This document shows positions 1-22,084 of a stretch of DNA of 64,000 nt, piece after piece. This DNA is from Loxodes magnus (taxonomy: Eukaryota; Ciliophora; Karyorelictea; Loxodida; Loxodidae). Positions within the stretch are counted from its first letter, which is position 1. Each line of letters begins with the position of its first letter. The position numbers and the translations under genes are program-made. The stretch covers positions 1 to 64,000 of the forward strand of contig CAMPDV010002428.1 of NCBI GenBank assembly GCA_946699065.1, given 5' to 3'. The notes below the pieces were generated by a model that worked only from the letters and a program-made list of their open reading frames with translations, ran no database searches and was not told the origin of the DNA.

Positions 1-304
1 TATCTGTGGCTATATCCAGTGATTCAGAGTTCATCGTATCGGGAAGTTATGATTATACGGTGAGACTATGGAACGTCAAGACAGGTACCTGTAAGACCAT
101 GAGTGGTCACACAGATTATGTATTATCTGTGGCTATATCCAGTGATTCAGAGTTCATCGTATCGAAAAGTGATGATGAGACGGTGAGACTATGGAACGTC
201 AAGACAGGTAGCTGTAAGACCATGAGTGGTCACAGACATTATGTATTATCTGTGGCTATATCCAGTGATTCAGAGTTCATCGTATCGGCAAGTTGAGATA
301 AACG

Positions 305-922
305 GTGAGACTATGGAACGTCAAGACAGGTAGCTGTAAGACCATGAGTGGTCACAGACATTATGTATTATCTGTGGCTATATCCAGTGATTCAGAGTTC
401 ATCGTATCGGGAAGTGGAGATAATAAGGTGAGACTATGGAACGTCAAGACAGGTACCTGTAAGACCATGAGTGGTCACACAGATTATGTATTATCTGTGG
501 CTATATCCAGTGATTCAGAGTTCATCGTATCGGGATGTTGAGATGAGACGGTGAGACTATGGAACGTCAAGACAGGTACCTGTAAGACCATGAGTGGTCA
601 CACTAGTTATGTATCATCTGTGAATATATCCAGTGATTCAGAGTTCATCGTATCGGGAAGTGCAGATTATACGTTGAGACTATGGAACGTCAAGACAGGT
701 ACCTGTAAGACCATGAGTGGTCACACAAATCCTGTAAGATCTGTGGCTATATCCAGTGATTCAGAGTTCATCGTATCGGGAAGTGATGATGAGACGGTGA
801 GACTATGGAACGTCAAGACATGTACCTGTAAGACCATGAGTGGTCACACAGATTATGTATTATCTGTGGCTATATCCAGTGATTCAGAGTTCATCGTATC
901 GGGAAGTAGAGATAAACGGTGA
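305..922 (+). CDS. WD40 array block, 5 units
   Basis: Open segment between two 122-bp units, with one internal TGA (539-541) at the residue before the blade aspartate, where Trp would give GCWDET. The loops after GH are RHY, TDY, TSY, TNP and TDY. The TNP unit is followed by a rare KTCTC unit, a pair that recurs near 2080, 11660 and 12890. No start of its own is credible; this is a piece of a longer array. Confidence 0.45.
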
Positions 923-1536
923 GACTATGGAACGTCAAGACAGGTACCTGTAAGACCATGAGTGGTCACACAGATTATGTATTATCTGTGGCTATATCCA
1001 GTGATTCAGAGTTCATCGTATCGGGAAGTTATGATTATACGGTGAGACTATGGGACGTCAAGACAGGTAGCTGTAAGACCATGAGTGGTCACACAGATTA
1101 TGTATTATCTGTGGCTATATCCAGTGATTCAGAGTTCATCGTATCGGGAAGTGATGATATGACGGTGAGACTATGGAACGTCAAGACAGGTACCTTTAAG
1201 ACCATGAGTGGTCACAGACATTATGTATTATCTGTGGCTATATCCAGTGATTCAGAGTTCATCGTATCGGGAAGTTATGATTATACGGTGAGACTATGGG
1301 ACGTCAAGACAGGTAGCTGTAAGACCATGAGTGGTCACACAGATTATGTATTATCTGTGGCTATATCCAGTGATTCAGAGTTCATCGTATCGGGAAGTGA
1401 TGATAAGACGGTAAGACTATGGAACGTCAAGACAGGTACCTGTAAGACCATGAGTGGTCACACAGATTATGTATTATCTGTGGCTATATCCAGTGATTCA
1501 GAGTTCATCGTATCGGCAAGTTGTGATAAACGGTGA
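919..1536 (+). CDS. WD40 array block, 5 units
   Basis: Five full blades in one frame with no internal TGA. Two blades carry RLWD instead of RLWN and sit on either side of a KTGTF blade with an RHY loop. The segment ends at a 122-bp unit of the SCDKR type. Two further single-unit 122-bp steps follow (about 1650 and 1773). Confidence 0.45.
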   Translation: MRLWNVKTGTCKTMSGHTDYVLSVAISSDSEFIVSGSYDYTVRLWDVKTGSCKTMSGHTDYVLSVAISSDSEFIVSGSDDMTVRLWNVKTGTFKTMSGHRHYVLSVAISSDSEFIVSGSYDYTVRLWDVKTGSCKTMSGHTDYVLSVAISSDSEFIVSGSDDKTVRLWNVKTGTCKTMSGHTDYVLSVAISSDSEFIVSASCDKR

Positions 1537-1776
1537 GACTATGGAACGTCAAGACAGGTAGCTGTAAGACCATGAGTGGTCACAGACATTATGTATTATC
1601 TGTGGCTATATCCAGTGATTCAGAGTTCATCGTATCGGGAAGTAGAGATAAACGGTGAGACTATGGAACGTCAAGACAGGTACCTGTAAGACCATGAGTG
1701 GTCACACAGATTATGTATTATCTGTGGCTATATCCAGTGATTCAGAGTTCATCGTATCGGGAAGTAGAGATAAACG

Positions 1777-2394
1777 GTGAGACTATGGAACGTCAAGACA
1801 GGTACCTGTAAGACCATGAGTGGTCACAGACATTATGTATTATCTGTGGCTATATCCAGTGATTCAGAGTTCATCGTATCGGAAAGTTGAGATAAGACGG
1901 TGAGACTATGGAACGTCAAGACAGGTAGCTGTAAGACCATGAGTGGTCACACAGATTATGTATTATCTGTGGCTATATCCAGTGATTCAGAGTTCATCGT
2001 ATCGGGAAGTAGAGATGAGACGGTGAGACTATGGAACGTCAAGACAGGTACCTGTAAGACCATGAGTGGTCACACAAATCCTGTAAGATCTGTGGCTATA
2101 TCCAGTGATTCAGAGTTCATCGTATCGGGAAGTGATGATGAGACGGTGAGACTATGGAACGTCAAGACATGTACCTGTAAGACCATGAGTGGTCACACAG
2201 ATTATGTATTATCTGTGGCTATATCCAGTGATTCAGAGTTCATCGTATCGGGAAGTGATGATAAGACGGTGAGACTATGGAACGTCAAGACAGGTACCTG
2301 TAAGACCATGAGTGGTCACACAAATCCTGTATTATCTGTGGCTATATCCAGTGATTCAGAGTTCATCGTATCGGGAAGTAGAGATAAACGGTGA
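1777..2394 (+). CDS. WD40 array block, 5 units
   Basis: Five blades, the first ending in S-TGA-DKT (TGA near 1889), which reads as SWDKT if TGA is Trp. It contains the TNP/RSV blade followed by a KTCTC blade and then a TNP/LSV blade, an order found again at 12862-13150. That points to block copying inside the array. Confidence 0.45.
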
Positions 2395-2879
2395 GACTAT
2401 GGAACGTCAAGACAGGTACCTGTAAGACCATGAGTGGTCACACAGATTATGTATTATCTGTGGCTATATCCAGTGATTCAGAGTTCATCGTATCGGGAAG
2501 TAGAGATGAGACGGTGAGACTATGGAACGTCAAGACAGGTAGCTGTAAGACCATGAGTGGTCACACTAATTATGTATAATCTGTGGCTATATCCAGTGAT
2601 TCAGAGTTCATCGTATCGGGAAGTAGAGATAAACGGTGAGACTATGGAACGTCAAGACAGGTACCTGTAAGACCATGAGTGGTCACACAGATTATGTATT
2701 ATCTGTGGCTATATCCAGTGATTCAGAGTTCATCGTATCGGGAAGTAGAGATAAACGGTGAGACTATGGAACGTCAAGACAGGTACCTTTAAGACCATGA
2801 GTGGTCACACAGATTATGTATTATCTGTGGCTATATCCAGTGATTCAGAGTTCATCGTATCGGGAAGTTGAGATAAACG

Positions 2880-3743
2880 GTGAGACTATGGAACGTCAAG
2901 ACAGGTAGCTGTAAGACCATGAGTGGTCACAGACATTATGTATTATCTGTGGCTATATCCAGTGATTCAGAGTTCATCGTATCGGGAAGTGATGATATGA
3001 CGGTGAGACTATGGAACGTCAAGACAGGTACCTTTAAGACCATGAGTGGTCACAGACATTATGTATTATCTGTGGCTATATCCAGTGATTCAGAGTTCAT
3101 CGTATCGGGAAGTAGAGATGAGACGGTGAGACTATGGAACGTCAAGACAGGTAGCTGTAAGACCATGAGTGGTCACACAGATTATGTATTATCTGTGGCT
3201 ATATCCAGTGATTCAGAGTTCATCGTATCGGGAAGTGATGATAAGACGGTAAGACTATGGAACGTCAAGACAGGTACCTGTAAGACCATGAGTGGTCACA
3301 CAGATTATGTATTATCTGTGGCTATATCCAGTGATTCAGAGTTCATCGTATCGGGAAGTAGAGATGAGACGGTGAGACTATGGAACGTCAAGACAGGTAC
3401 CTGTAAGACCATGAGTGGTCACACAGATTATGTATTATCTGTGGCTATATCCAGTGATTCAGAGTTCATCGTATCGGGAAGTGATGATATGACGGTAAGA
3501 CTATGGAACGTCAAGACAGGTACCTGTAAGACCATGAGTGGTCACAGACATTATGTATTATCTGTGGCTATATCCAGTGATTCAGAGTTCATCGTATCGG
3601 GAAGTAGAGATGAGACGGTGAGACTATGGAACGTCAAGACAGGTAGCTGTAAGACCATGAGTGGTCACACTAATTATGTATTATCTGTGGCTATATCCAG
3701 TGATTCAGAGTTCATCGTATCGGGAAGTAGAGATAAACGGTGA
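2880..3743 (+). CDS. WD40 array block, 7 units (copy A of a duplicated segment)
   Basis: Seven blades with final codes DDMT, RDET, DDKT, RDET, DDMT, RDET and RDKR. The same order appears 4055 bp downstream inside 6812-7798, which has one extra blade at its left end. This block marks the left edge of the large tandem duplication. Confidence 0.45.
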   Translation: MRLWNVKTGSCKTMSGHRHYVLSVAISSDSEFIVSGSDDMTVRLWNVKTGTFKTMSGHRHYVLSVAISSDSEFIVSGSRDETVRLWNVKTGSCKTMSGHTDYVLSVAISSDSEFIVSGSDDKTVRLWNVKTGTCKTMSGHTDYVLSVAISSDSEFIVSGSRDETVRLWNVKTGTCKTMSGHTDYVLSVAISSDSEFIVSGSDDMTVRLWNVKTGTCKTMSGHRHYVLSVAISSDSEFIVSGSRDETVRLWNVKTGSCKTMSGHTNYVLSVAISSDSEFIVSGSRDKR

Positions 3744-5587
3744 GACTATGGAACGTCAAGACAGGTACCTGTAAGACCATGAGTGGTCACACAGATTATG
3801 TATTATCTGTGGCTATATCCAGTGATTCAGAGTTCATCGTATCGGGAAGTGATGATATGACGGTGAGACTATGGAACGTCAAGACAGGTAGCTGTAAGAC
3901 CATGAGTGGTCACAGACATTATGTATTATCTGTGGCTATATCCAGTGATTCAGAGTTCATCGTATCGGGAAGTAGAGATGAGACGGTGAGACTATGGAAC
4001 GTCAAGACAGGTAGCTGTAAGACCATGAGTGGTCACACAGATTATGTATTATCTGTGGCTATATCCAGTGATTCAGAGTTCATCGTATCGGGAAGTGATG
4101 ATAAGACGGTGAGACTATGGAACGTCAAGACAGGTACCTTTAAGACCATGAGTGGTCACACAGATTATGTATTATCTGTGGCTATATCCAGTGATTCAGA
4201 GTTCATCGTATCGAAAAGTGATGATGAGACGGTGAGACTATGGAACGTCAAGACATGTACCTGTAAGACCATGAGTGGTCACACAGATTATGTATTATCT
4301 GTGGCTATATCCAGTGATTCAGAGTTCATCGTATCGGGAAGTTATGATTATACGGTGAGACTATGGGACGTCAAGACAGGTACCTGTAAGACCATGAGTG
4401 GTCACACTAGTTATGTATTATCTGTGGCTATATCCAGTAATTCAGAGTTCATAGTATCGGGAAGTCATGATTATACGGTGAGACTATGGAACGTCAAGAC
4501 AGGTACCTGTAAGACCATGAGTGGTCACAGACATTATGTATTATCTGTGGCTATATCCAGTGATTCAGAGTTCATCGTATCGGGAAGTAGAGATGAGACG
4601 GTAAGACTATGGAACGTCAAGACAGGTACCTGTAAGACCATGAGTGGTCACAGACATTATGTATTATCTGTGGCTATATCCAGTGATTCAGAGTTCATCG
4701 TATCGGGATGTTGAGATGAGACGGTGAGACTATGGAACGTCAAGACAGGTACCTGTAAGACCATGAGTGGTCACAGACATTATGTATTATCTGTGGCTAT
4801 ATCCAGTGATTCAGAGTTCATCGTATCGGGAAGTGATGATGAGACGGTGAGACTATGGAACGTCAAGACAGGTACCTTTAAGACCATGAGTGGTCACACA
4901 GATTATGTATTATCTGTGGCTATATCCAGTGATTCAGAGTTCATCGTATCGGGAAGTGATGATAAGACGGTAAGACTATGGAACGTCAAGACAGGTACCT
5001 GTAAGACCATGAGTGGTCACACAGATTATGTATTATCTGTGGCTATATCCAGTGATTCAGAGTTCATCGTATCGGGAAGTGATGATAAGACGGTAAGACT
5101 ATGGAACGTCAAGACAGGTACCTGTAAGACCATGAGTGGTCACAGACATTATGTATTATCTGTGGCTATATCCAGTGATTCAGAGTTCATCGTATCGGGA
5201 AGTGATGATATGACGGTGAGACTATGGAACGTCAAGACAGGTACCTTTAAGACCATGAGTGGTCACAGACATTATGTATTATCTGTGGCTATATCCAGTG
5301 ATTCAGAGTTCATCGTATCGGGAAGTTATGATTATACGGTGAGACTATGGAACGTCAAGACAGGTACCTGTAAGACCATGAGTGGTCACACAGATTATGT
5401 ATTATCTGTGGCTATATCCAGTGATTCAGAGTTCATCGTATCGGGAAGTGATGATAAGACGGTAAGACTATGGAACGTCAAGACAGGTACCTGTAAGACC
5501 ATGAGTGGTCACAGAGATTATGTATTATCTGTGGCTATATCCAGTGATTCAGAGTTCATCGTATCGGGAAGTAGAGATAAACGGTGA
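3740..5587 (+). CDS. WD40 array block, 15 units (copy A)
   Basis: Fifteen blades in a single frame if the TGA at 4712-4714 is read as Trp (GCWDET). Blade codes are DDMT, RDET, DDKT, DDET, YDYT, HDYT, RDET, CWDET, DDET, DDKT, DDKT, DDMT, YDYT, DDKT and RDKR. It includes a rare SNS variant and a rare ATAGTA spelling near 4440-4455. The counterpart at 7795-9642 shares both but differs at a KTGTF/KTGTC residue and at one DDKT/RDET code. Confidence 0.5.
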
Positions 5588-6693
5588 GACTATGGAACGT
5601 CAAGACAGGTACCTGTAAGACCATGAGTGGTCACACAAATTATGTATTATCTGTGGCTATATCCAGTGATTCAGAGTTCATCGTATCGGGAAGTAGAGAT
5701 GAGACGGTGAGACTATGGAACGTCAAGACAGGTACCTGTAAGACCATGAGTGGTCACAGACATTATGTATTATCTGTGGCTATATCCAGTGATTTAGAGT
5801 TCATCGTATCGGGAAGTAGAGATGAGACGGTGAGACTATGGAACGTCAAGACAGGTACCTGTAAGACCATGAGTGGTCACAGACATTATGTATTATCTGT
5901 GGCTATATCCAGTGATTCAGAGTTCATCGTATCGGGAAGTGATGATAAGACGGTGAGACTATGGAACGTCAAGACAGGTACCTGTAAGACCATGAGTGGT
6001 CACAGACATTATGTATTATCTGTGGCTATATCCAGTGATTCAGAGTTCATCGTATCGGGATGTTGAGATGAGACGGTGAGACTATGGAACGTCAAGACAG
6101 GTACCTGTAAGACCATGAGTGGTCACAGACATTATGTATTATCTGTGGCTATATCCAGTGATTCAGAGTTCATCGTATCGGGATGTTGAGATGAGACGGT
6201 GAGACTATGGAACGTCAAGACAGGTACCTGTAAGACCATGAGTGGTCACAGACATTATGTATTATCTGTGGCTATATCCAGTGATTCAGAGTTCATCGTA
6301 TCGGGAAGTTATGATTATACGGTGAGACTATGGAACGTCAAGACAGGTACCTGTAAGACCATGAGTGGTCACAGACATTATGTATTATCTGTGGCTATAT
6401 CCAGTGATTCAGAGTTCATCGTATCGGGATGTTGAGATGAGACGGTGAGACTATGGAACGTCAAGACAGGTACCTGTAAGACCATGAGTGGTCACAGACA
6501 TTATGTATTATCTGTGGCTATATCCAGTGATTCAGAGTTCATCGTATCGGGAAGTAGAGATAATAAGGTGAGACTATGGAACGTCAAGACAGGTACCTTT
6601 AAGACCATGAGTGGTCACACAGATTATGTATTATCTGTGGCTATATCCAGTGATTCAGAGTTCATCGTATCGGGAAGTAGAGATAAACGGTGA
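5584..6693 (+). CDS. WD40 array block, 9 units (copy A)
   Basis: Nine blades, open when the three TGA codons (near 6064, 6187 and 6433) are read as Trp; all three sit in GC-TGA-DET contexts. RHY loops dominate. One blade carries SDL instead of SDS. The copy at 9639-10748 has the same order. Confidence 0.45.
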
Positions 6694-6811
6694 GACTATG
6701 GAACGTCAAGACAGGTACCTGTAAGACCATGAGTGGTCACACAGATTATGTATTATCTGTGGCTATATCCAGTGATTCAGAGTTCATCGTATCGGGAAGT
6801 AGAGATAAACG

Positions 6812-7798
6812 GTGAGACTATGGAACGTCAAGACAGGTACCTGTAAGACCATGAGTGGTCACACAGATTATGTATTATCTGTGGCTATATCCAGTGATTC
6901 AGAGTTCATCGTATCGGGAAGTAGAGATGAGACGGTGAGACTATGGAACGTCAAGACAGGTAGCTGTAAGACCATGAGTGGTCACAGACATTATGTATTA
7001 TCTGTGGCTATATCCAGTGATTCAGAGTTCATCGTATCGGGAAGTGATGATATGACGGTGAGACTATGGAACGTCAAGACAGGTACCTTTAAGACCATGA
7101 GTGGTCACAGACATTATGTATTATCTGTGGCTATATCCAGTGATTCAGAGTTCATCGTATCGGGAAGTAGAGATGAGACGGTGAGACTATGGAACGTCAA
7201 GACAGGTAGCTGTAAGACCATGAGTGGTCACACAGATTATGTATTATCTGTGGCTATATCCAGTGATTCAGAGTTCATCGTATCGGGAAGTGATGATAAG
7301 ACGGTAAGACTATGGAACGTCAAGACAGGTACCTGTAAGACCATGAGTGGTCACACAGATTATGTATTATCTGTGGCTATATCCAGTGATTCAGAGTTCA
7401 TCGTATCGGGAAGTAGAGATGAGACGGTGAGACTATGGAACGTCAAGACAGGTACCTGTAAGACCATGAGTGGTCACACAGATTATGTATTATCTGTGGC
7501 TATATCCAGTGATTCAGAGTTCATCGTATCGGGAAGTGATGATATGACGGTGAGACTATGGAACGTCAAGACAGGTACCTGTAAGACCATGAGTGGTCAC
7601 AGACATTATGTATTATCTGTGGCTATATCCAGTGATTCAGAGTTCATCGTATCGGGAAGTAGAGATGAGACGGTGAGACTATGGAACGTCAAGACAGGTA
7701 GCTGTAAGACCATGAGTGGTCACACTAATTATGTATTATCTGTGGCTATATCCAGTGATTCAGAGTTCATCGTATCGGGAAGTAGAGATAAACGGTGA
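6812..7798 (+). CDS. WD40 array block, 8 units (copy B)
   Basis: Eight blades. The last seven match 2880-3743 at +4055 bp, differing in at least one synonymous GTA/GTG position. The first blade (TDY, RDET) has no partner there, so the duplication edge lies close to 6935. Confidence 0.45.
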
Positions 7799-9642
7799 GA
7801 CTATGGAACGTCAAGACAGGTACCTGTAAGACCATGAGTGGTCACACAGATTATGTATTATCTGTGGCTATATCCAGTGATTCAGAGTTCATCGTATCGG
7901 GAAGTGATGATATGACGGTGAGACTATGGAACGTCAAGACAGGTAGCTGTAAGACCATGAGTGGTCACAGACATTATGTATTATCTGTGGCTATATCCAG
8001 TGATTCAGAGTTCATCGTATCGGGAAGTAGAGATGAGACGGTGAGACTATGGAACGTCAAGACAGGTAGCTGTAAGACCATGAGTGGTCACACAGATTAT
8101 GTATTATCTGTGGCTATATCCAGTGATTCAGAGTTCATCGTATCGGGAAGTGATGATAAGACGGTGAGACTATGGAACGTCAAGACAGGTACCTGTAAGA
8201 CCATGAGTGGTCACACAGATTATGTATTATCTGTGGCTATATCCAGTGATTCAGAGTTCATCGTATCGAAAAGTGATGATGAGACGGTGAGACTATGGAA
8301 CGTCAAGACATGTACCTGTAAGACCATGAGTGGTCACACAGATTATGTATTATCTGTGGCTATATCCAGTGATTCAGAGTTCATCGTATCGGGAAGTTAT
8401 GATTATACGGTGAGACTATGGGACGTCAAGACAGGTACCTGTAAGACCATGAGTGGTCACACTAGTTATGTATTATCTGTGGCTATATCCAGTAATTCAG
8501 AGTTCATAGTATCGGGAAGTCATGATTATACGGTGAGACTATGGAACGTCAAGACAGGTACCTGTAAGACCATGAGTGGTCACAGACATTATGTATTATC
8601 TGTGGCTATATCCAGTGATTCAGAGTTCATCGTATCGGGAAGTAGAGATGAGACGGTAAGACTATGGAACGTCAAGACAGGTACCTGTAAGACCATGAGT
8701 GGTCACAGACATTATGTATTATCTGTGGCTATATCCAGTGATTCAGAGTTCATCGTATCGGGATGTTGAGATGAGACGGTGAGACTATGGAACGTCAAGA
8801 CAGGTACCTGTAAGACCATGAGTGGTCACAGACATTATGTATTATCTGTGGCTATATCCAGTGATTCAGAGTTCATCGTATCGGGAAGTGATGATGAGAC
8901 GGTGAGACTATGGAACGTCAAGACAGGTACCTTTAAGACCATGAGTGGTCACACAGATTATGTATTATCTGTGGCTATATCCAGTGATTCAGAGTTCATC
9001 GTATCGGGAAGTGATGATAAGACGGTAAGACTATGGAACGTCAAGACAGGTACCTGTAAGACCATGAGTGGTCACACAGATTATGTATTATCTGTGGCTA
9101 TATCCAGTGATTCAGAGTTCATCGTATCGGGAAGTAGAGATGAGACGGTGAGACTATGGAACGTCAAGACAGGTACCTGTAAGACCATGAGTGGTCACAG
9201 ACATTATGTATTATCTGTGGCTATATCCAGTGATTCAGAGTTCATCGTATCGGGAAGTGATGATATGACGGTGAGACTATGGAACGTCAAGACAGGTACC
9301 TTTAAGACCATGAGTGGTCACAGACATTATGTATTATCTGTGGCTATATCCAGTGATTCAGAGTTCATCGTATCGGGAAGTTATGATTATACGGTGAGAC
9401 TATGGAACGTCAAGACAGGTACCTGTAAGACCATGAGTGGTCACACAGATTATGTATTATCTGTGGCTATATCCAGTGATTCAGAGTTCATCGTATCGGG
9501 AAGTGATGATAAGACGGTAAGACTATGGAACGTCAAGACAGGTACCTGTAAGACCATGAGTGGTCACAGAGATTATGTATTATCTGTGGCTATATCCAGT
9601 GATTCAGAGTTCATCGTATCGGGAAGTAGAGATAAACGGTGA
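7795..9642 (+). CDS. WD40 array block, 15 units (copy B)
   Basis: Fifteen blades in the same order as 3740-5587, including the rare SNS and ATAGTA variants, with one internal TGA at 8767-8769. The few differences from copy A fall in the variable codons (KTGTC for KTGTF, RDET for DDKT), as expected from recent duplication followed by local conversion. Confidence 0.5.
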
Positions 9643-10748
9643 GACTATGGAACGTCAAGACAGGTACCTGTAAGACCATGAGTGGTCACACAAATTATGT
9701 ATTATCTGTGGCTATATCCAGTGATTCAGAGTTCATCGTATCGGGAAGTAGAGATGAGACGGTGAGACTATGGAACGTCAAGACAGGTACCTGTAAGACC
9801 ATGAGTGGTCACAGACATTATGTATTATCTGTGGCTATATCCAGTGATTTAGAGTTCATCGTATCGGGAAGTAGAGATGAGACGGTGAGACTATGGAACG
9901 TCAAGACAGGTACCTGTAAGACCATGAGTGGTCACAGACATTATGTATTATCTGTGGCTATATCCAGTGATTCAGAGTTCATCGTATCGGGAAGTGATGA
10001 TAAGACGGTGAGACTATGGAACGTCAAGACAGGTACCTGTAAGACCATGAGTGGTCACAGACATTATGTATTATCTGTGGCTATATCCAGTGATTCAGAG
10101 TTCATCGTATCGGGATGTTGAGATGAGACGGTGAGACTATGGAACGTCAAGACAGGTACCTGTAAGACCATGAGTGGTCACAGACATTATGTATTATCTG
10201 TGGCTATATCCAGTGATTCAGAGTTCATCGTATCGGGATGTTGAGATGAGACGGTGAGACTATGGAACGTCAAGACAGGTACCTGTAAGACCATGAGTGG
10301 TCACAGACATTATGTATTATCTGTGGCTATATCCAGTGATTCAGAGTTCATCGTATCGGGAAGTTATGATTATACGGTGAGACTATGGAACGTCAAGACA
10401 GGTACCTGTAAGACCATGAGTGGTCACAGACATTATGTATTATCTGTGGCTATATCCAGTGATTCAGAGTTCATCGTATCGGGATGTTGAGATGAGACGG
10501 TGAGACTATGGAACGTCAAGACAGGTACCTGTAAGACCATGAGTGGTCACAGACATTATGTATTATCTGTGGCTATATCCAGTGATTCAGAGTTCATCGT
10601 ATCGGGAAGTAGAGATAATAAGGTGAGACTATGGAACGTCAAGACAGGTACCTTTAAGACCATGAGTGGTCACACAGATTATGTATTATCTGTGGCTATA
10701 TCCAGTGATTCAGAGTTCATCGTATCGGGAAGTAGAGATAAACGGTGA
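9639..10748 (+). CDS. WD40 array block, 9 units (copy B)
   Basis: Nine blades repeating 5584-6693 at +4055 bp, with three TGA codons at the same places (near 10119, 10242 and 10488). After it come two 122-bp units (ends near 10743 and 10864), as in copy A. The copies part at about 10911, where copy B has an RHY loop and copy A has TDY. Confidence 0.45.
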
Positions 10749-10866
10749 GACTATGGAACGTCAAGACAGGTACCTGTAAGACCATGAGTGGTCACACAGA
10801 TTATGTATTATCTGTGGCTATATCCAGTGATTCAGAGTTCATCGTATCGGGAAGTAGAGATAAACG

Positions 10867-13575
10867 GTGAGACTATGGAACGTCAAGACAGGTACCTGTA
10901 AGACCATGAGTGGTCACAGACATTATGTATTATCTGTGGCTATATCCAGTGATTCAGAGTTCATCGTATCGGGAAGTGATGATATGACGGTGAGACTATG
11001 GAACGTCAAGACAGGTACCTTTAAGACCATGAGTGGTCACAGACATTATGTATTATCTGTGGCTATATCCAGTGATTCAGAGTTCATCGTATCGGGAAGT
11101 TATGATTATACGGTGAGACTATGGAACGTCAAGACAGGTAGCTGTAAGACCATGAGTGGTCACAGACATTATGTATTATCTGTGGCTATATCCAGTGATT
11201 CAGAGTTCATCGTATCGGGAAGTAGAGATGAGACGGTGAGACTATGGAACGTCAAGACAGGTAGCTGTAAGACCATGAGTGGTCACACAGATTATGTATT
11301 ATCTGTGGCTATATCCAGTGATTCAGAGTTCATCGTATCGGGAAGTAGAGATGAGACGGTGAGACTATGGAACGTCAAGACAGGTACCTGTAAGACCATG
11401 AGTGGTCACACAAATCCTGTAAGATCTGTGGCTATATCCAGTGATTCAGAGTTCATCGTATCGGGAAGTAGAGATGAGACGGTGAGACTATGGAACGTCA
11501 AGACAGGTAGCTGTAAGACCATGAGTGGTCACACAGATTATGTATTATCTGTGGCTATATCCAGTGATTCAGAGTTCATCGTATCGGGAAGTAGAGATGA
11601 GACGGTGAGACTATGGAACGTCAAGACAGGTACCTGTAAGACCATGAGTGGTCACACAAATCCTGTAAGATCTGTGGCTATATCCAGTGATTCAGAGTTC
11701 ATCGTATCGGGAAGTAGAGATGAGACGGTGAGACTATGGAACGTCAAGACATGTACCTGTAAGACCATGAGTGGTCACACAGATTATGTATTATCTGTGG
11801 CTATATCCAGTGATTCAGAGTTCATCGTATCGGGAAGTGATGATAAGACGGTAAGACTATGGAACGTCAAGACAGGTATCTGTAAGACCATGAGTGGTCA
11901 CACAAATCCTGTATTATCTGTGGCTATATCCAGTGATTCAGAGTTCATCGTATCGGGAAGTGATGATGAGACGGTGAGACTATGGAACGTCAAGACAGGT
12001 ACCTTTAAGACCATGAGTGGTCACAGACATTATGTATTATCTGTGGCTATATCCAGTGATTCAGAGTTCATCGTATCGGGAAGTTATGATTATACGGTGA
12101 GACTATGGAACGTCAAGACAGGTACCTGTAAGACCATGAGTGGTCACACAGATTATGTATTATCTGTGGCTATATCCAGTGATTCAGAGTTCATCGTATC
12201 GGGATGTTGAGATGAGACGGTGAGACTATGGAACGTCAAGACAGGTACCTGTAAGACCATGAGTGGTCACACAGATTATGTATTATCTGTGGCTATATCC
12301 AGTGATTCAGAGTTCATCGTATCGGGAAGTAGAGATGAGACGGTGAGACTATGGAACGTCAAGACAGGTACCTGTAAGACCATGAGTGGTCACACAGATT
12401 ATGTATTATCTGTGGCTATATCCAGTGATTCAGAGTTCATCGTATCGGGAAGTTATGATTATACGGTGAGACTATGGAACGTCAAGACAGGTACCTGTAA
12501 GACCATGAGTGGTCACACAGATTATGTAAGATCTGTGGCTATATCCAGTGATTCAGAGTTCATCGTATCGGGAAGTGGAGATAATAAGGTGAGACTATGG
12601 AACGTCAAGACAGGTACCTTTAAGACCATGAGTGGTCACAGACATTATGTATTATCTGTGGCTATATCCAGTGATTCAGAGTTCATCGTATCGGGAAGTA
12701 GAGATGAGACGGTGAGACTATGGAACGTCAAGACAGGTAGCTGTAAGACCATGAGTGGTCACACAGATTATGTATTATCTGTGGCTATATCCAGTGATTC
12801 AGAGTTCATCGTATCGGGAAGTAGAGATGAGACGGTGAGACTATGGAACGTCAAGACAGGTACCTGTAAGACCATGAGTGGTCACACAAATCCTGTAAGA
12901 TCTGTGGCTATATCCAGTGATTCAGAGTTCATCGTATCGGGAAGTGATGATGAGACGGTGAGACTATGGAACGTCAAGACATGTACCTGTAAGACCATGA
13001 GTGGTCACACAGATTATGTATTATCTGTGGCTATATCCAGTGATTCAGAGTTCATCGTATCGGGAAGTGATGATAAGACGGTAAGACTATGGAACGTCAA
13101 GACAGGTATCTGTAAGACCATGAGTGGTCACACAAATCCTGTATTATCTGTGGCTATATCCAGTGATTCAGAGTTCATCGTATCGGGAAGTAGAGATGAG
13201 ACGGTGAGACTATGGAACGTCAAGACAGGTAGCTGTAAGACCATGAGTGGTCACAGACATTATGTATTATCTGTGGCTATATCCAGTGATTCAGAGTTCA
13301 TCGTATCGGGAAGTGATGATAAGACGGTAAGACTATGGAACGTCAAGACAGGTATCTGTAAGACCATGAGTGGTCACACAGATTATGTATTATCTGTGGC
13401 TATATCCAGTGATTCAGAGTTCATCGTATCGGGAAGTAGAGATGAGACGGTGAGACTATGGAACGTCAAGACAGGTACCTGTAAGACCATGAGTGGTCAC
13501 ACAGATTATGTATTATCTGTGGCTATATCCAGTGATTTAGAGTTCATCGTATCGGCAAGTTGTGATAAACGGTGA
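10867..13575 (+). CDS. WD40 array block, 22 units (longest open frame)
   Basis: About 900 codons in one frame if the single TGA at 12208-12210 is Trp. Twenty-two blades would make roughly three seven-bladed propellers, or a superhelix. It holds repeated sub-blocks TNP/RSV, KTCTC, DDKT, KTGIC, TNP/LSV. KTGIC is seen only here. It ends at a 122-bp SCDKR unit. If any array part is translated as it stands, this is the best candidate, but no N-terminal exon is visible. Confidence 0.5.
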
Positions 13576-16034
13576 GACTATGGAACGTCAAGACAGGTAG
13601 CTGTAAGACCATGAGTGGTCACAGACATTATGTATTATCTGTGGCTATATCCAGTGATTCAGAGTTCATCGTATCGGGATGTTGAGATAAGACGGTGAGA
13701 CTATGGAACGTCAAGACAGGTAGCTGTAAGACCATGAGTGGTCACACAGATTATGTATTATCTGTGGCTATATCCAGTGATTCAGAGTTCATCGTATCGG
13801 GAAGTAGAGATGAGACGGTGAGACTATGGAACGTCAAGACAGGTACCTGTAAGACCATGAGTGGTCACACAGATTATGTATTATCTGTGGCTATATCCAG
13901 TGATTCAGAGTTCATCGTATCGGGAAGTAGAGATGAGACGGTGAGACTATGGAACGTCAAGACAGGTAGCTGTAAGACCATGAGTGGTCACAGACATTAT
14001 GTATTATCTGTGGCTACATCCAGTGATTCAGAGTTCATCGTATCGGGAAGTGGAGATAATAAGGTGAGACTATGGAACGTCAAGACAGGTACCTTTAAGA
14101 CCATGAGTGGTCACACTAGTTATGTATATGCTGTGGCTATATCCAGTGATTCAGAGTTCATCGTATCGGGAAGTGATGATTATACGGTGAGACTATGGAA
14201 CGTCAAGACAGGTAGCTGTAAGACCATGAGTGGTCACAGACATTATGTATTATCTGTGGCTATATCCAGTGATTCAGAGTTCATCGTATCGGGAAGTGAT
14301 GATAAGACGGTGAGACTATGGAACGTCAAGACAGGTACCTGTAAGACCATGAGTGGTCACACTAATTATGTATAAGCTGTGGCTATATCCAGTGATTCAG
14401 AGTTCATCGTATCGGGAAGTAGAGATGAGACGGTGAGACTATGGAACGTCAAGACAGGTAGCTGTAAGACCATGAGTGGTCACAGACATTATGTATTATC
14501 TGTGGCTATATCCAGTGATTCAGAGTTCATCGTATCGGGATGTTGAGATAAGACGGTGAGACTATGGAACGTCAAGACAGGTACCTGTAAGACCATGAGT
14601 GGTCACAGACATTATGTATTATCTGTGGCTATATCCAGTGATTCAGAGTTCATCGTATCGGGAAGTGATGATAAGACGGTGAGACTATGGAACGTCAAGA
14701 CAGGTACCTGTAAGACCATGAGTGGTCACACAGATTATGTATTATCTGTGGCTATATCCAGTGATTCAGAGTTCATCGTATCGGGAAGTCATGATAAGAC
14801 GGTGAGACTATGGGACGTCAAGACAGGTACCTGTAAGACCATGAGTGGTCACACTAATTATGCATAATCAGTGGCTATATCCAGTGATTCAGAGTTCATT
14901 GTATCGGGAAGTCATGATTAGACGGTGAGACTATGGAACGTCAAGACAGGTACCTGTAAGACCATGAGTGGTCACACAAATCCTGTAAGATCTGTGGCTA
15001 TATCCAGTGATTCAGAGTTCATCGTATCGGGAAGTAGAGATGAGACGGTGAGACTATGGAACGTCAAGACAGGTAGCTGTAAGACCATGAGTGGTCACAG
15101 ACATTATGTATTATCTGCGGCTATATCCAGTGATTTAGAGTTCATCGTATCGGGAAGTAGAGATGAGACGGTGAGACTATGGAACGTCAAGACAGGTAGC
15201 TGTAAGACCATGAGTGGTCACAGACATTATGTATTATCTGTGGCTATATCCAGTGATTCAGAGTTCATCGTATCGGGATGTTGAGATAAGACGGTGAGAC
15301 TATGGAACGTCAAGACAGGTACCTGTAAGACCATGAGTGGTCACACTAGTTATGTATATGCTGTGGCTATATCCAGTGATTCAGAGTTCATCGTATCGGG
15401 AAGTAGAGATTAGACGGTGAGACTATGGAACGTCAAGACAGGTACCTGTAAGACCATGAGTGGTCACACTAATTATGTATAAGCTGTGGCTATATCCAGT
15501 GATTCAGAGTTCATCGTATCGGGAAGTAGAGATGAGACGGTGAGACTATGGAACGTCAAGACAGGTAGCTGTAAGACCATGAGTGGTCACACAGATTATG
15601 TATTATCTGTGGCTATATCCAGTGATTCAGAGTTCATCGTATCGGGAAGTAGAGATGAGACGGTGAGACTATGGAACGTCAAGACAGGTAGCTGTAAGAC
15701 CATGAGTGGTCACAGACATTATGTATTATCTGCGGCTATATCCAGTGATTTAGAGTTCATCGTATCGGGAAGTAGAGATGAGACGGTGAGACTATGGAAC
15801 GTCAAGACAGGTAGCTGTAAGACCATGAGTGGTCACAGACATTATGTATTATCTGTGGCTATATCCAGTGATTCAGAGTTCATCGTATCGGGAAGTTGAG
15901 ATAAGACGGTGAGACTATGGGACGTCAAGACAGGTACCTGTAAGACCATGAGTGGTCACAGACATTATGTATTATCTGTGGCTATATCCAGTGATTCAGA
16001 GTTCATCGTATCGGCAAGTTGTGATAAACGGTGA
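13572..16034 (+). CDS. WD40 array block, ~20 units, more diverged right end
   Basis: Open for about 820 codons only if TAA/TAG are Gln and TGA is Trp. TAA occurs as YVQAV and YAQSV (14373, 14866, 15480), TAG as HDQT and RDQT (14914, 15412), and TGA four times before the blade Asp. Rare replacements gather here (SATSS, SAAISS, SDL, YAV loops). A 615-bp internal repeat (exactly five units) carries the same SAAISS/SDL pair at 15118 and 15733. The concentration of rare variants fits an array edge that is converted less often. Confidence 0.45.
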
Positions 16035-16398
16035 GACTATGGAACGTCAAGACAGGTACCTGTAAGACCATGAGTGGTCACAGACATTATGTATTATCTG
16101 TGGCTATATCCAGTGATTCAGAGTTCATCGTATCGGGATGTTGAGATAAGACGGTGAGACTATGGAACGTCAAGACAGGTAGCTGTAAGACCATGAGTGG
16201 TCACAGACATTATGTATTATCTGTGGCTATATCCAGTGATTTAGAGTTCATCGTATCGGCAAGTTGTGATAAACGGTGAGACTATGGAACGTCAAGACAG
16301 GTACCTGTAAGACCATGAGTGGTCACAGACATTATGTATTATCTGTGGCTATATCCAGTGATTCAGAGTTCATCGTATCGGGATGTTGAGATAAGACG

Positions 16399-16677
16399 GT
16401 GAGACTATGGAACGTCAAGACAGGTAGCTGTAAGACCATGAGTGGTCACACTAGTTATGTATATGCTGTGGCTATATCCAGTGATTCAGAGTTCATCGTA
16501 TCGGCAAGTAGAGATGAGACGGTAAGACTATGGAACGTCAAGACAGGTACCTGTAAGACCTCATTTTTTTACACATTTTTTATAAATTTTTTTTATTTTT
16601 TTACTATTGCCACATCAAAAATATATTTTCAATCGTCGATAAAAGATTTTTTGCGTTTATTTAACGATACAATTTAA
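16399..16677 (+). CDS. Last WD40 unit and run-out into AT-rich DNA
   Basis: One full blade (TSY/YAV loop, ASRDET), then [13 protein letters not shown], after which the repeat stops abruptly at about 16560. The frame runs on as a Phe-rich low-complexity tail, unlikely to be functional. The break within a blade suggests truncation by recombination or insertion rather than a natural gene end. Confidence 0.35.
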   Translation: MRLWNVKTGSCKTMSGHTSYVYAVAISSDSEFIVSASRDETVRLWNVKTGTCKTSFFYTFFINFFYFFTIATSKIYFQSSIKDFLRLFNDTI

Positions 16678-17005
16678 TTTTAATTTCAAATTTTTTAGCA
16701 TTTTCTTTTTTTTCTAATAAAATATTTATAAAGTCTTTTCGTATATTTCTTTTATATCTAAAAGATTTGAAAATTATTTGAAAACTTATTCAGAAAATAT
16801 TTTACTTTTTTAAATAAAATAAAAAAAAATCAGGAAATTATTATAAAATACTCGAAACAAAAGCTTCTTTTTTATGTCTTATAATTTGTTACATTCAAAA
16901 GAATTCCGTATAATTATATGCTATCATTAATTTAAATAATTACATTCAATAATATTTTTAAATTAAAATCAATTAAATAATTTATATAAAACAGGAAAAA
17001 GTTTC
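16561..17005. other. AT-rich stretch with no recognised gene
   Basis: Long T runs and then A/T-rich sequence between the WD40 array and the first retroelement. I see no protein signature, hairpin or tandem repeat here. Confidence 0.6.
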
Positions 17006-18150
17006 TATACCAAGTAAGCAAAAAGAACTTTCAGGACCTGATATAAATAAGATGGACTTATTTTAGTAGGAGTAGAGTTTAATATAAATATTACTGCAAT
17101 ATAAATTTAAAGGTTGATTTTTTCGATAAATACCTAAACAGAAATCCTACTTTATATAGCTGACAATAATCAAACACATATGACCCTTTTTGCTATTTTC
17201 CCATATCACTTATAAATCTCCTTTTGAAAATCATGATCTCTGACTATTTAATATTCAAATCCTTACTTGTAAAGATGTTACGATGAATTGTGATACGGAT
17301 TTAAAGTAGTTAATTTATGCTCTCAATAAATATTCTATCTAAGAACAATACTTGAATGACTTTATTATAACAATCGAGAGATTATCGTCATTTTTATTTT
17401 ATTTAAAAAGAATTTGATTCAGTGATTTGATCAAATTTATGAAAAATCCTGAATAAGATCTAAGTACAGTAAGGAATGAAAAGTTTCCTATCAATCATAT
17501 ATAAAGATGAGAGAATAAGATTAAGAATAAATTATCTTATTTCTGAAGAATTTGAAACTTAAAACGGAGTTAAATAAGGATGTGTCTGCTCCCCGGAGAT
17601 TATTCAATATATTATTAAATTAGTTATTGAATGAACTAAAGGATAAAAGAAGTTGGTATTAAAATGCAGACTGAAACGGAATTGGAAACAGAAGTAAGAT
17701 ATGTAGGCACCCTAGCATATGCTGATGATATTGTACCATTTGTTCATCCAGATTAACTAGATGATATGATTGATATAATATAATAATGATCATAACGCTA
17801 TAATTTATAAATTACGGACAAAACAAAATGAATGGTATGAAATGTTAATGCATGACAAAAATAAGATATAATCACGATAAATGGTATAGCAATAGAGAAA
17901 GTGAAGGAATTTAAGTATTTGGATCATTGGATATAAGAAAATATTTCATATTTAAAACATCTGGAATCAAGAATCTTAGAATGCCAGAAAACCCAAGCAT
18001 GAATTTTAAGCAAATTAACAATATAGAAAAGAATCACTCCATATAATGCATCTATAATAATAAAATTCTTTATAATCAAGATTTTGGTTATGGAAGCGAT
18101 TGTATTCCATACATAGAAGAAGCTATAGGAAATAACTCTTTAAATAAATT
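17006..18150 (+). mobile_element. LINE A: non-LTR retrotransposon RT fragment
   Basis: Reverse transcriptase signatures in ciliate code, in order: SGPDINKMD (about 17030); EFDSVI-TGA-SNL-TGA-KIL (17411-17450, the RT block with F-D-S); IYKDERIRLRINYL (17497); GVKQGCVCSP (about 17565); LAYADDIVPF (17712, catalytic Y-A-D-D); EFKYLDHWI (about 17908). Two long frames join near 17640, so there is at least one frameshift, and 17160-17400 is poorly readable. No endonuclease domain or 3' tail is recognised, so both ends are uncertain. TGA at 17428, 17440, 17787, 17829, 17838, 17853 and 18000 falls where Trp fits a LINE RT. TAA/TAG read as Gln throughout. Inactive fragment. Confidence 0.8.
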
Positions 18151-18369
18151 GTAAATATAAAAAAATTTATTATTTCTAAATATCACGGGATTAAAATCTT
18201 GACGAATCTTCTTTACCTAAAAATAAAGAACTGCTATCTAATTAAATGAGCATAGGTAGATGCTCGACTACTTTCTAAAATTTATCCTGATTCATTTCAA
18301 CTCAAATCCGTAAAGCATATTATAAACTTGTTAAGAGCTTTATTAAATAGTTGTAGTTAATCTCCAGTT

Positions 18370-18690
18370 AAAAAGATCCTTCGAATTTCGTTAAAATTAC
18401 TTCGAAATTCCTTAAGAACTGGAAATTAACTAGCAAGAGTTTTAAAGATTCAAAAATATATTTATAGATAAAAAAAACTAGATTGGTACCTCAGTCTCAG
18501 CACTCGTATCAAAAGTATCCTCTACATAGTAAGATACTTTTTGATAATTCATTCTCTAACCAGTTAAAAGCAGTAAATAATATTATGAATATTTAAGATA
18601 CTCTTTAAGTTGAAAAATAAAATGAAATACTTCTATATGAAGTAAAAGAACTCAAGATTAAAATATAAAAATTAACAGATAAATAAACAA
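18370..18690 (+). pseudogene. Coiled-coil gene, left part (split by an inserted element)
   Basis: A frame from about 18372 reads KDPSNFVKITSKFLKNWKL, later LLYEVKELKIKIQKLTDKQ, with TAA/TAG as Gln. The heptad-like Leu/Ile spacing and Lys/Gln richness indicate a coiled coil; I do not recognise the family. It runs straight into the AAAT-rich tail of the minus-strand element at 18690-19120. Similar coiled-coil coding resumes beyond that element at about 19126, suggesting one gene split by insertion. It could instead be ORF1 of a LINE. Confidence 0.4.
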
Positions 18691-19120
18691 ATAAATAAAA
18701 TGATTATAGAGCGCGTAGCACCTCATTGGCGCGCAGCTCTTTCAATATTAATATTTAATATTAAGAAAAATGTTCTCATGTTTCTTGTTAAAATTCTGGA
18801 AGTCCGATGAGTCATGTCAGCTTCTCCAATTAGGGAATCTGCTTATTAAAATTTATTCTAAAATCTTGAGTCAAATGCTTCAGTCTTCTTGAATAAGGTC
18901 CAAATAAGAGATAGTTATTAAGTCGGTAATAAGAAGGCCCGTCAATCAAACTTTCATACTGCTAGAGAGAACCCTTGGGGTAAGCTAGGTATGTCTCAAC
19001 GGAGCTTATCCACCATTCCCCGTTGTGACATCTAGTGTGAGATTACTCGCAATGCAATATACTCTGTACCAGATTACTTACTAATTTGTCTGATGCGGCC
19101 GACGTCCATTTTATATTTTT
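18685..19120 (-). mobile_element. SINE-like element E1 (hairpin family)
   Basis: On the minus strand it runs from a GGACGTCGGCCGC head at about 19115 to a 3' hairpin at 18709-18739 and an (ATTT)n tail at 18682-18700. The hairpin has arms GAGC/GCTC and an inner CACC/GG(T/C)G pair around a TC(G/A)TT loop, and is shared with the elements at 20891, 21272 and 27268. The body is more GC-rich than its surroundings and I find no coding in it. Likely mobilised by a LINE with the same 3' end. The 5' end is approximate and no clear target-site duplication was found. Confidence 0.65.
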
Positions 19121-19125
19121 TTATA

Positions 19126-20490
19126 TATAATAACAATTCTTTAGAAAAACTAAACACTATTCTTACATAAAATAATCAAAATATTTAAGTCATAAAAAGT
19201 TCTTATGAAGCAACCTTTGAATAGTATAAGACTTATATAAATAAAATTACTAAGAAAATAAAGGAAATCAAAAATGAAAATTAGATGCTAATGTTAGATC
19301 TATAAGAGTAATAATAATTAAAAATAAGGTCTAAAAAGTTAAATTTTGCAACAAATTAAATATAATTTTAGATAAAGAAGTTTAAGCAAATTCCTGAATT
19401 TGCCTTATTAATTAAATTATCTAGACTGATATAAGCATTTCTGGAAGAAATGAATAATCAATATAAACAAATTATGATAGCTCAAAAGAAAAGTTAATTT
19501 AAACAGATGAAATAAAGAAATATATTGAATAAACTCTTAGTAATGAATAATTTACTTAAACAGAACTAGTTAAAAGTCATAAATAAACACAAAAAAATTT
19601 ATAATCTAGTGATATGCTAACCCATAAATAAATAAACTTCCTGCAAGTTTAAATTGAATTATATAAATAATAAGAATAAGCATTAAAGCATATCTAACAA
19701 GAACTTTAAGAAGCTTATTAAATAAAAAATAAACACTGAAGCTTAATTATAAAATTATTAATATTTAAATCAATAATCTGCTGATTAGTGTTTAATGCTA
19801 AAGAATTAAATTTTAAATTTGAGTAAAGAATTAGAAAAGCAATATTAAAATGGAAATAAGTAATATATGATGTATAAAACAGATTTACCATGAAAATAAA
19901 ATATCATTTAAGATATATTAATATAAAAACAAAGAGAATTAGAAAATAATACAATAATTTATACTTATCAGTTACAAATACAAAAAATAATTCAAGTTGA
20001 AATGCAAACTTAAACGGAAGTAAATTCACATAAAATTAGTCAAACTTAAACAGACAATATAAGTTAGGATAAAAAAATCTAAGTTAAAGTTTAATGTTCA
20101 AATGCTTCATCTAGTACAATAAAAGTTGAATAGTATAATCAATTTTGCTAGACAAGTTTGCTTGATGAGAATTATATAAAACTCCAGTAATTCTATCATT
20201 AGCTAAATATTTAACTTCATTTGTAACAATTAAAAATTTGAGTAAAACTTAAGAAAATAATAAGAAATTAATAAGTAATTAATGAAAGAATTATTTGATC
20301 TAAAAACCAAGCCTTGATAAAAAGATTAAATGAGCTAAACAAACATTAATTATATTGAAAACTAGAATCGCACTGTTATTAAATAATAAAATCCTTGCAA
20401 AAGAAAACATGAAAAAGATGAAATTTAAATTCCTCCAGCTAAACGCAATATTAAATGTAAAAATGAAAGAGAAAGTGAAGAGATAATACG
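19126..20490 (+). pseudogene. Coiled-coil gene, right part, frame-broken
   Basis: Ciliate-code reading gives a Gln/Lys/Asn-rich coiled-coil protein in several frames. About 19126-19450 reads NSLEKLNTILTQNNQNIQV and KTYINKITKKIKEIKNENQ. About 19470-19735 reads EKLIQTDEIKKYIEQTLSNE and later QVQIELYKQQEQALKHIQ. About 20000-20240 reads QVEMQTQTEVNSHKISQTQT. A basic end near 20390-20480 reads PCKRKHEKDEIQIPPAKR, resembling a nuclear localisation signal. At least three frame changes occur, which could be decay or unrecognised short introns. QTQT motifs resemble LC8 dynein light chain sites (inference). The gene meets a second inserted element at about 20493. Family not recognised. Confidence 0.4.
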
Positions 20491-20492
20491 CA

Positions 20493-20890
20493 AATAAATA
20501 AATAAATTAATTAATGTGGGTCTGCCATTATAGGCTATCCACGGATTAATGTTTTAATAATATAGTCTTGATACTCTTTTCTCCTTGTTTTAATTCACAA
20601 ATGTGAAACCTTCTTCTCTCTATTCTTGTGACTCTGTCTAAGGCTGGAGTTGAAATTCTTAAGGAATTCTCATTAAAGTACAAAAGTCAGTCTTGAGTAT
20701 CTTCTATAGTTAAAAATTTTAGTTTATTTTTGCCTCAGCTATGCCTTGCTTTCCACCAAGCTCCTATCCAAGTTGACGGCATAGTGAATAGGAGAGCTTC
20801 TGAGGCGCAAACTACAGAATAAGACTCGCTTTTTCTGATATTGAGTCTCAAGCTAGAGACTAGATTAAGACTCACCGTCCATATTTTAAA
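20493..20890 (-). mobile_element. SINE-like element E2 (different hairpin)
   Basis: On the minus strand it starts with ATGGACGG at about 20885, similar to the start of E1, and ends with GTGG...GCC...GGC...CCAC (a nested hairpin at about 20516-20544). A TTAATTAATTTATTTATTTA tail follows at 20493-20515. The body contains a GAGTCT/AGACTC inverted pair near its head. No coding is seen. Head similar to E1 but 3' end different suggests a modular SINE whose 3' end comes from another LINE. Confidence 0.5.
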
Positions 20891-21270
20891 TTATTATAAA
20901 TAAATAAATAAATTTGATTATAGAGCGCGTAGCACCTCGTTGGTGCGCAGCTCTTTAATAAATGTTTCAATACATGTCTATTTCTTCATGTAAGCCTTCA
21001 GGTAATAAAAATTCTTCTCTTATTAGTTCTATATCTTCATCATTTTCTTCTTCAATATCTCTTGTTCTTCTGTCTTCTATCTATCTACGTTTTATTGATT
21101 CTTTGTTACAAGCGTCCATTATTTTTTTTTACATACTTTGCTAATTTTCGTTTCTAATTCTTTTCTTCTTAATCAAGCTTTTATAAACTCATAAAAACTA
21201 TCCTTTTCCTGCTATATAATCTTTTCCTATTTCTTTTTTTCATTCAATTTTCTTTATAATATATAATTTA
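20891..21270 (-). mobile_element. LINE 3' fragment E3 (ORF C-terminus plus hairpin tail)
   Basis: The minus strand encodes the end of an ORF in ciliate code: MDACNKESIKRRQIEDRRT (from 21119), then an acidic stretch and LPEGLHEEIDMY ending in TGA at 20967-20969. Fourteen bases later comes the same hairpin (20923-20953) and AAAT-rich tail as in E1, E4 and E5. This ties the SINE 3' ends to a protein-coding partner LINE. The 5' side is truncated, apparently at the junction with E4 at 21272. TGA appears to act as a true stop here because it directly precedes the 3' hairpin. Confidence 0.6.
20967..21119 (-). CDS. C-terminal 50 residues of a LINE ORF
   Basis: Very acidic/basic C-terminal segment of the E3 LINE protein, 50 codons from an internal Met to TGA; the frame continues upstream for at least 25 codons. 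No domain is recognised. Its value is positional: it ends immediately before the shared 3' hairpin, so the hairpin is the 3' UTR of a LINE mRNA. Confidence 0.45.
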
Positions 21271-21271
21271 A

Positions 21272-21625
21272 ATAGGGTGGAAAGCCCTTTCCTTCGGATA
21301 TTGCTTGGAGGCCCAGCAAGGCAAATAAAAAATAAGCGCAGACGGAGGATAAATCGGAGAAAGAGAAATCAATGACAAGAGAAAGCCGATGTAATAAGCT
21401 GAAGAACTAGGAATGCCAGGAGGAAACTTTCTTCATTATAGGTCGGGGAAATGTACCCGTAATCGCATATTGCATCCTATGCTTTGGAAGGAAAAATTAC
21501 AGGGACTGCAGGAAGGGAAAACAGGGACAGAGAGACATAAATTTTTTTTTCGACATTAAATAAAATTAATTTAAAGAGCTGCGCACCAACGAGAGTGCTA
21601 TGCGCTCTATAATCCAATTTATTTA
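21272..21625 (+). mobile_element. SINE E4, complete copy
   Basis: Begins AAATAGGGTGGAAAGCCC, runs about 350 bp without convincing coding, and ends in the hairpin (21576-21607) and an ATTTATTTA tail. It is nearly identical over its length to the copy at 27268-27640, which lies in the opposite orientation. The shared 5' end, shared 3' end and own tail mark it as a discrete SINE. I do not see a standard tRNA A/B box, so the head type is unknown. Confidence 0.75.
21576..21607 (+). ncRNA. Conserved 3' hairpin of the LINE/SINE family (E4 copy)
   Basis: Stem-loop with outer GAGC/GCTC and inner GTGC/GCAC pairs. Other copies lie at 18709-18739, 20923-20953 and 27298-27329. In the 27298 copy the inner pair is ATGC/GCAT, a paired change that keeps the stem. 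In LINE/SINE pairs such a 3' structure is typically what the reverse transcriptase recognises (known for other families, inferred here). Confidence 0.55.
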
Positions 21626-21629
21626 TTTA

Positions 21630-22084
21630 ACTAAAAAAATAACAATAAAATTTTACTCCCATTAAAGAAAATTAAATATTTTTGAAGCACTTCATAAGAT
21701 CGGACTAACAACACTTAAAACATGTAAACAAATCAGATATAAATTAATATAAGACCACAAAAAAATAGAAAATAAGCAAAAATTATAAACTCAAATGGCT
21801 ATAATAGAGAAAAAACAGAAAAAATGATGATTGAAAAAGGAAATTATCAGAAATTTTAAAAGAAAAAGAAATAAACAATAAAAAATTAAATTTGTTTTAG
21901 ATGATAAAAGGTATATAAATCGACAACATAAGAAAGTTATAAATGAAACGAAAAAAAAATCGAAGTTTAAAAGTAATAAAAAAAAAAAGTGTAAAAATGA
22001 ACAATCGATTAAGATCTAAAAATCAAAAAAAATAAAAAAAACCAAAAAAATTAAAAAAAAACTATAAATGCTGAAGAAAGATTT
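21630..22084 (+). other. A-rich region, possible Lys-rich reading frame
   Basis: With TAA/TAG as Gln, 21685-22080 is open and reads FEALHKIGLTTLKTCKQI near its start, then becomes Lys/Asn-rich. Because few codons are stops in this code, openness means little. It could be a remnant of a gene or of a LINE ORF1. No function assigned. Confidence 0.25.

Follow-up and report, generated by a model that had tools for sequence, protein, structure and literature searches.

A tandem array of WD40 cassettes in the ciliate Loxodes magnus varies at the sites at which the repeats of the fungal HNWD receptors vary. It occupies positions 1-16560 (plus strand) of the window, by which is meant the whole 64,000-nucleotide stretch analysed here (contig CAMPDV010002428.1 of assembly GCA_946699065.1, forward-strand positions 1 to 64,000). 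The preferred reading, given a probability of roughly 0.6, makes the array a satellite-like and probably non-coding expansion whose cassettes derive from a ciliate gene family of RING-pentapeptide-WD40 type. The focus of variation on HNWD-like sites is real, and the array is varied as HNWD repeats are, but nothing makes it an HNWD gene.

Tandem Repeats Finder (TRF) reports a single tandem array across 1-16560 with 134.8 copies and 94% matches. Anchors from 27 to 16489 bracket 134 whole units in 66 distinct versions; 114 units are 123 bp long and the other 20 are 122 bp, and any two units differ on average at 6.74 positions per 123-bp pair (~94.5% DNA identity). The initial annotation, made from the sequence alone, had described about 134 nearly invariant units, and this is borne out: 35/123 columns are variable and only five of 45 distinct base changes are silent, a set that excludes the deletion itself and one base found only in deletion units. 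The 20 short units, which fall into eight distinct types, are all missing one and the same base of codon 10, and the array therefore does not form a single open frame; the longest run of units unbroken by the deletion is 21, and the longest free of both the deletion and TGA is 10. On the right the array breaks off abruptly in mid-unit at 16560 and passes into AT-rich DNA, where the next in-frame TGA is at 16768; G+C is ~43% in the array versus mostly 19-28% in the 12 kb to its right. A 31-unit block at 2970-6779 (plus strand) recurs at 7025-10834, offset by 4055 bp, with 28 of the 31 units identical and a longest exact run of 1768 bp (5096-6863). The shared one-base loss, the abrupt end and the block duplication had all been missed by the initial annotation. 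This duplication may be a recent tandem event or an assembly duplication; tandem repeats of L. magnus exceed 230 Mb, and the authors of the genome paper hold repeat misassembly to account for the size difference of their two assemblies (PMC11441545). With its long head-to-tail run of near-identical units, its block duplication and the lack of a continuous frame, the array has the features of a satellite whose left end, past the window edge, is out of view.

Variation within the unit, in the register E1 F2 I3 V4 S5 G6 S7 x8 D9 x10 T11 ... H28 T29 x30 x31 V32 x33, is highest at codons 10 (six alleles plus the deletion) and 8 (eight alleles), followed in entropy by codons 30, 29, 21 and 33. The residue before the blade Asp had been singled out as the most variable; codon 8 is indeed highly variable (AGA 53, GAT 38, TGA 19, TAT 12, TGT 4, CAT 4, GGA 3 and GCA 1 among the 134 units), but the codon that follows the Asp varies to a similar extent, at 2.31 versus 2.23 bits if the deletion is treated as an allele. 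Codons 8 and 10 occur together in 18 different pairs, and the Asp codon between them is GAT in 134/134 units. Codon 17 is likewise invariant. At codon 21, 37/134 units differ from the commonest form, as do 15/134 each at codons 7 and 22, while strand codons 12, 32, 35, 36 and 37 are hit by rare changes in one or two units each (codon 32 in 1/134). The three clusters of replacements described earlier, at residues 9-11, 18-23 and 36-41, all vary and would correspond to codons 20-22, 29-34 and 6-11 if that numbering starts at codon 12.

A seven-unit in-frame stretch without TGA (4724-5587, plus strand, 287 aa) is predicted to form a 7-bladed propeller. Single-sequence AlphaFold2 prediction gave a best model with a predicted local distance difference test score (pLDDT) of 93.1 and a predicted template modelling (TM) score of 0.91, and two of the five models were poor (pLDDT 51.8 and 42.8). 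The best Foldseek match to the model was 5yzv (TM 0.91), with designed 7-bladed propellers at ~0.9, and the nearest solved folds include a prokaryotic WD40 domain as well as designed propellers. In the predicted model codons 8-10 lie in the b-c turn, codons 29-31 in the d-a turn and codons 17-21 in the c-d loop. The b-c and d-a turns of WD40 propellers lie on one face and the c-d loop on the opposite one, so variation is not confined to the codons of one propeller face, as had been claimed: codons 20-22 are in or beside the c-d loop, and rare changes are seen in strand codons as well. The three seven-unit open reading frames of 287 aa were also considered as designed propeller modules, an idea that was rejected since two of the three copy one block and the run lengths between broken units vary widely.

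HNWD repeats of Podospora are classed by positions 10, 11, 12, 14, 30, 32 and 39, picked for high dN/dS (PMC12222747), and four of these sites, reported under different numbering to be under strong positive selection, form two pairs that flank two conserved residues (PMC1805685, PMC2873952). Matched on their spacing and on the conserved residues beside them (V32, D9), the seven positions correspond in that order to codons 29, 30, 31, 33, 8, 10 and 17 of the array unit, and they were fixed in advance of the test. The mapping used the letters of the HET-E unit. The seven matched codons hold 22/45 distinct changes versus 7.7 expected (p = 9e-7) and 7.91 of the 12.06 bits of amino-acid entropy (66%; permutation p = 2.5e-5). 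An entropy test on the 66 distinct units, with TGA as Trp and deletion codons omitted, gave p = 2e-5, the HNWD register ranked first among 41 shifts, and restriction to the four strongly selected sites gave p = 0.0007. Six of the seven codons are variable; the seventh is the invariant codon 17 (site 39). Silent changes are in turn fewer than simulation predicts, with 5/45 distinct changes versus 10.6-10.9 expected (p ~0.02). Variants present in more than three units include two silent changes among 30 (7.2 expected, p = 0.014), and those in three units or fewer include three among 15 (3.6 expected, p = 0.49), a pattern consistent with selected diversity of older date overlaid by neutral change that is recent. 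The 35 codons outside the six hot ones have four silent changes among 23 (p = 0.29).

Clustering of this kind could also arise by chance from a few early variants in an ordinary satellite with no selective history. The window holds two adjoining satellites that served as controls, one of 88 bp (33695-46810, 148 anchors) and one of 73 bp (46767-63980, 227 anchors), and in both, too, a few columns account for most of the variation, so concentration of variation alone is no evidence of selection. Scan statistics on full-length units only (114/134 for the WD40 array; 138/147 and 127/226 intervals for the controls) are no more than mildly unusual for the WD40 array, with p values of 0.16, 0.02 and 0.009 for scan widths of 6, 9 and 15 bp, and the control arrays gave 0.06-0.33. 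Chance clustering would nevertheless have to account for the match to sites fixed beforehand, for the use of the same six codons at a second locus and for the scarcity of silent changes among the common variants, and is considered very unlikely.

This second locus, of gene type, lies at 28957-31187 and starts 12.4 kb downstream of the array; it comprises RING-like, pentapeptide, cassette and diverged WD40 parts. Its 454-codon open frame (28957-30320, plus strand) has a sub-threshold RING-like N-terminus, a Gln-rich middle, pentapeptide repeats and the start of the first WD40 blade, and the presence of 52 TAA/TAG codons and no TGA in a frame with pentapeptide matches indicates that TAA and TAG are read as sense. 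The pentapeptide repeats (30064-30240, plus strand) match PF13599 and PF00805 above the cut-off; the RING-like match, to zf-RING_2, reaches 17.2 bits (E = 0.0065), below the cut-off of 27.3. Structure prediction of the 454-aa frame had a pLDDT of 37.3 and gave no usable model, so the term RING reflects the sub-threshold Pfam match and the term coil composition alone. The cassette part (30301-30709, plus strand) has three complete units and a partial fourth; their backbone is that of the array consensus, silent sites included, and the complete cassettes differ from the consensus at codons 8, 10, 29, 30, 31 and 33 only. The diverged C-terminal WD40 blades follow at 30710-31187 (plus strand, right end approximate). 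Three frame breaks interrupt the locus: two of the cassettes have one each, at codons 8 and 33, and a third, judged by eye, lies beyond the cassettes and before the C-terminal blades. Neither HET, NACHT nor NB-ARC domains were found at E<=0.01 in the six frames of 16560-31500, nor at E<=1 in the 454-codon frame. The proposal of the initial annotation that the array is a ciliate counterpart of HNWD is upheld in its focus on sites, but codon 17 does not vary and the regions searched hold none of these domains.

The shared backbone of the array and the gene-type locus 12-14 kb away, silent sites included, might instead mark the array as a silent archive, its units acting as gene-conversion donors to expressed WD40 sensor genes; the initial annotation had spoken of a diversity store for recognition proteins. 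The history of the units leaves room for this, in that 19 patch-A and 14 patch-B haplotypes are joined in 40 combinations, and all four combinations occur in 135/276 column pairs (columns with at least five minor copies each), including 25/84 pairs separated by less than 15 bp, which indicates sequence exchange between units or recurrent mutation. Broken members, moreover, are tolerated in silent archives. Exchange is not free, however, as the two patches in one unit are more strongly associated than in shuffled data (mutual information z 6.3; with the next unit, z 5.2), and there is no conversion tract or other visible sign of array-to-gene copying. Three of the nine second-locus codon alleles checked (at codons 29, 30 and 31) occur in 0/134 units, the other six being present; none of the three complete second-locus cassettes equals any array unit, and the array variants at codons 7, 21 and 22 are not found there, though three cassettes are few. 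With 20/134 units frame-broken as well, a store of this kind is unlikely. A wider version, in which an archive of more than 134 cassettes with diversified top-face codons is copied into RING-pentapeptide-WD40 genes as an independent HNWD-like sensor system with a silent reservoir, is doubtful to a slightly greater degree. If true, the archive would give a TRIM-like ubiquitin-ligase architecture (putative RING, putative coil, propeller) new binding faces.

The array could also be one very long expressed WD40 gene, in which TGA encodes Trp and the 122-bp units are errors, a minor haplotype or tolerated by frameshifting. Trp is a plausible WD40 residue before the blade Asp, where TGA is an allele of codon 8, and the frame is kept in 114/134 units. 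TGA may be Trp here: it occurs at the usual WD40 Trp position in the C-terminal blades of the second locus, itself frame-broken, and a stretch of ~200 residues of a long interspersed nuclear element (LINE) reverse transcriptase is in frame through four TGA codons, of which one occupies the aromatic position of the N-F-R-P-I motif. The alignment of the LINE endonuclease does not place Trp at its TGA, and other LINE frames appear broken by eye. In Loxodes, UGA is reported as Trp or stop (PMC11441545). The use of TGA as proof of decay was accordingly rejected. A long gene is nonetheless difficult to reconcile with a single deletion common to 20 units of eight types, which is not scattered error, with an array that breaks off in AT-rich DNA, or with structural codons hit by rare changes as if unselected, and this explanation is rather improbable.

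Under the preferred reading of a satellite-like expansion, cassettes in the source genes would have been kept alike by recombination between units (concerted evolution), and their top-face propeller codons would have changed fast, as in fungal HNWD receptors. A multi-unit stretch with that diversity would then have been amplified by unequal exchange to more than 134 units, with the recent block duplication added. Since amplification, drift would have spread the one-base deletion to 20 units, and rare changes would have gathered at any site. Diversifying selection would thus belong to the past, copying would presumably have run from genes to array, the array would have no coding function and the propellers would bind something variable. 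The HNWD pattern, a homogenised backbone with fast codons at matching sites, is seen here outside fungi and on a different protein architecture, and a general mode of WD40 receptor evolution becomes testable in ciliates. The findings further suggest that satellite DNA can arise from coding cassettes that carry a history of selection; replacements clustered in an array are then no sure sign of its expression.

Several observations weigh against such an expansion. The left end of the array lies beyond the window, where a gene start could be present, and errors of sequencing or assembly could account for some of the frame breaks. The test of silent against replacement changes is of modest strength, with small numbers, and takes the 45 changes as independent although units exchange sequence; for the six hot codons by themselves (one silent change among 22, p = 0.055) it is not significant. 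A cyanobacterial WD40 array, described below, varies at the same sites and also elsewhere, and WD40 repeats may in general be permissive there. Finally, all three one-base breaks inside cassettes (array codon 10, second-locus codons 8 and 33) fall within the six hot codons, for which simple arithmetic gives a chance of (6/41)^3, ~0.003; drift alone does not predict this, which hints at a mutational cause.

Such a cause could be targeted mutation of two patches (codons 8-10 and 29-33) that yields replacements as well as TGA codons and the loss or gain of single bases, and the 18 pairings of codons 8 and 10 are in keeping with it. However, codon 9, flanked by the two codons that vary most, is unchanged in all 134 units, silent base included, for which (2/3)^10 = 0.017, and codon 32 is changed in 1/134. 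Hot columns 86 and 91 have no A anywhere in the array, against simple adenine-directed change, and change of the type made by diversity-generating retroelements was rejected on this ground. In addition, no diversifying element was recognised in 16560-31500, where Pfam gives LINE pieces only. Targeted mutation is therefore scarcely probable.

Among known systems, the HNWD/NWD genes of Podospora anserina (het-d, het-e and het-r) resemble the array in their near-identical WD40 repeats, replacements beside two conserved residues per repeat, repeat shuffling, and stop codons or frameshifts in the repeats of some alleles (PMC1805685, PMC2873952, PMC12222747). Internal identity of HNWD WD40 repeats is 85% or more (PMC4986451), a level that the array exceeds by either measure given above. 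Typical HNWD/NWD receptors carry a NACHT and often a HET domain ahead of their repeats, differ between strains in how many repeats they have and in what order, and act in non-self recognition. Unlike HNWD genes, the array has more than 134 units, 20 of them frame-broken, and an invariant site 39; the second locus is RING-like and pentapeptide-bearing, there is no HET or NACHT match in it or in 16560-31500, and the DNA upstream of the array is outside the window. Young leucine-rich repeat genes of Tetrahymena are likewise repeat-domain genes of a ciliate that have gained diversity as their repeat modules were shuffled, but their repeats are tandem 90-bp exons parted by introns and not satellite-like; WD40 is among the seven top domains of Tetrahymena species-specific genes (PMC6564038). 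The L. magnus genome is rich in tandem repeats, and the main text of the paper on it does not mention WD40 (PMC11441545). In the literature searched, no title or abstract opening describes a ciliate WD40 array of such a kind, and a search for Loxodes together with WD40 gave 0 papers.

The cyanobacterial array emerged from a plasmid search, in which the best match, one of 333 matching records, was WP_181927138.1 on plasmid pNe_3 of Nostoc edaphicum (50.5% identity over seven units). In the Nostoc NB-ARC-WD40 protein (L001, 1605-5156), anchors delimit 12 consecutive units of 42 residues, which vary next to the blade Asp and around the conserved Val as in the array; unlike those of the array, these units are more diverged, vary elsewhere too and lie in an open frame with NB-ARC. 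In genome contigs, eight stretches yielded one distant relative, a Chlorobiota locus with 31% identity. Among viral contigs, the exact 20-base unit pattern had 0 matches, and no relatives were confirmed for the seven-unit protein (0/2 stretches) or the 454-aa frame (0/4 stretches). The whole window holds no Rfam family that reaches its gathering score and no tRNA.

Between the array and the second locus lies a LINE-type piece (24885-26654, minus strand) with an Exo_endo_phos_2 endonuclease and an RVT_1 reverse transcriptase (E = 5e-18), matching LINE-1 ORF2 and R2 chains. A second reverse transcriptase remnant (17401-17649, plus strand) matches RVT_1 with an E value of 2e-5, below the cut-off. 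The same region includes a 379-bp element present as an inverted pair (21262-21640 and 27267-27643, 92.6% identity), and related pieces, which are shorter or more diverged, occur at 18.7-19.1, 20.9 and 28.2-28.6 kb. Directly downstream of the second locus, an AT-rich block is repeated in direct orientation within 31864-33040, in diverged copies with 70-84% identity. The 88-bp and 73-bp satellites have related stretches of 33-57 bp in common, with 91-97% identity, and from 34001 on one strand shows a strong purine bias, with a GC skew of 0.70-0.80 per kb.

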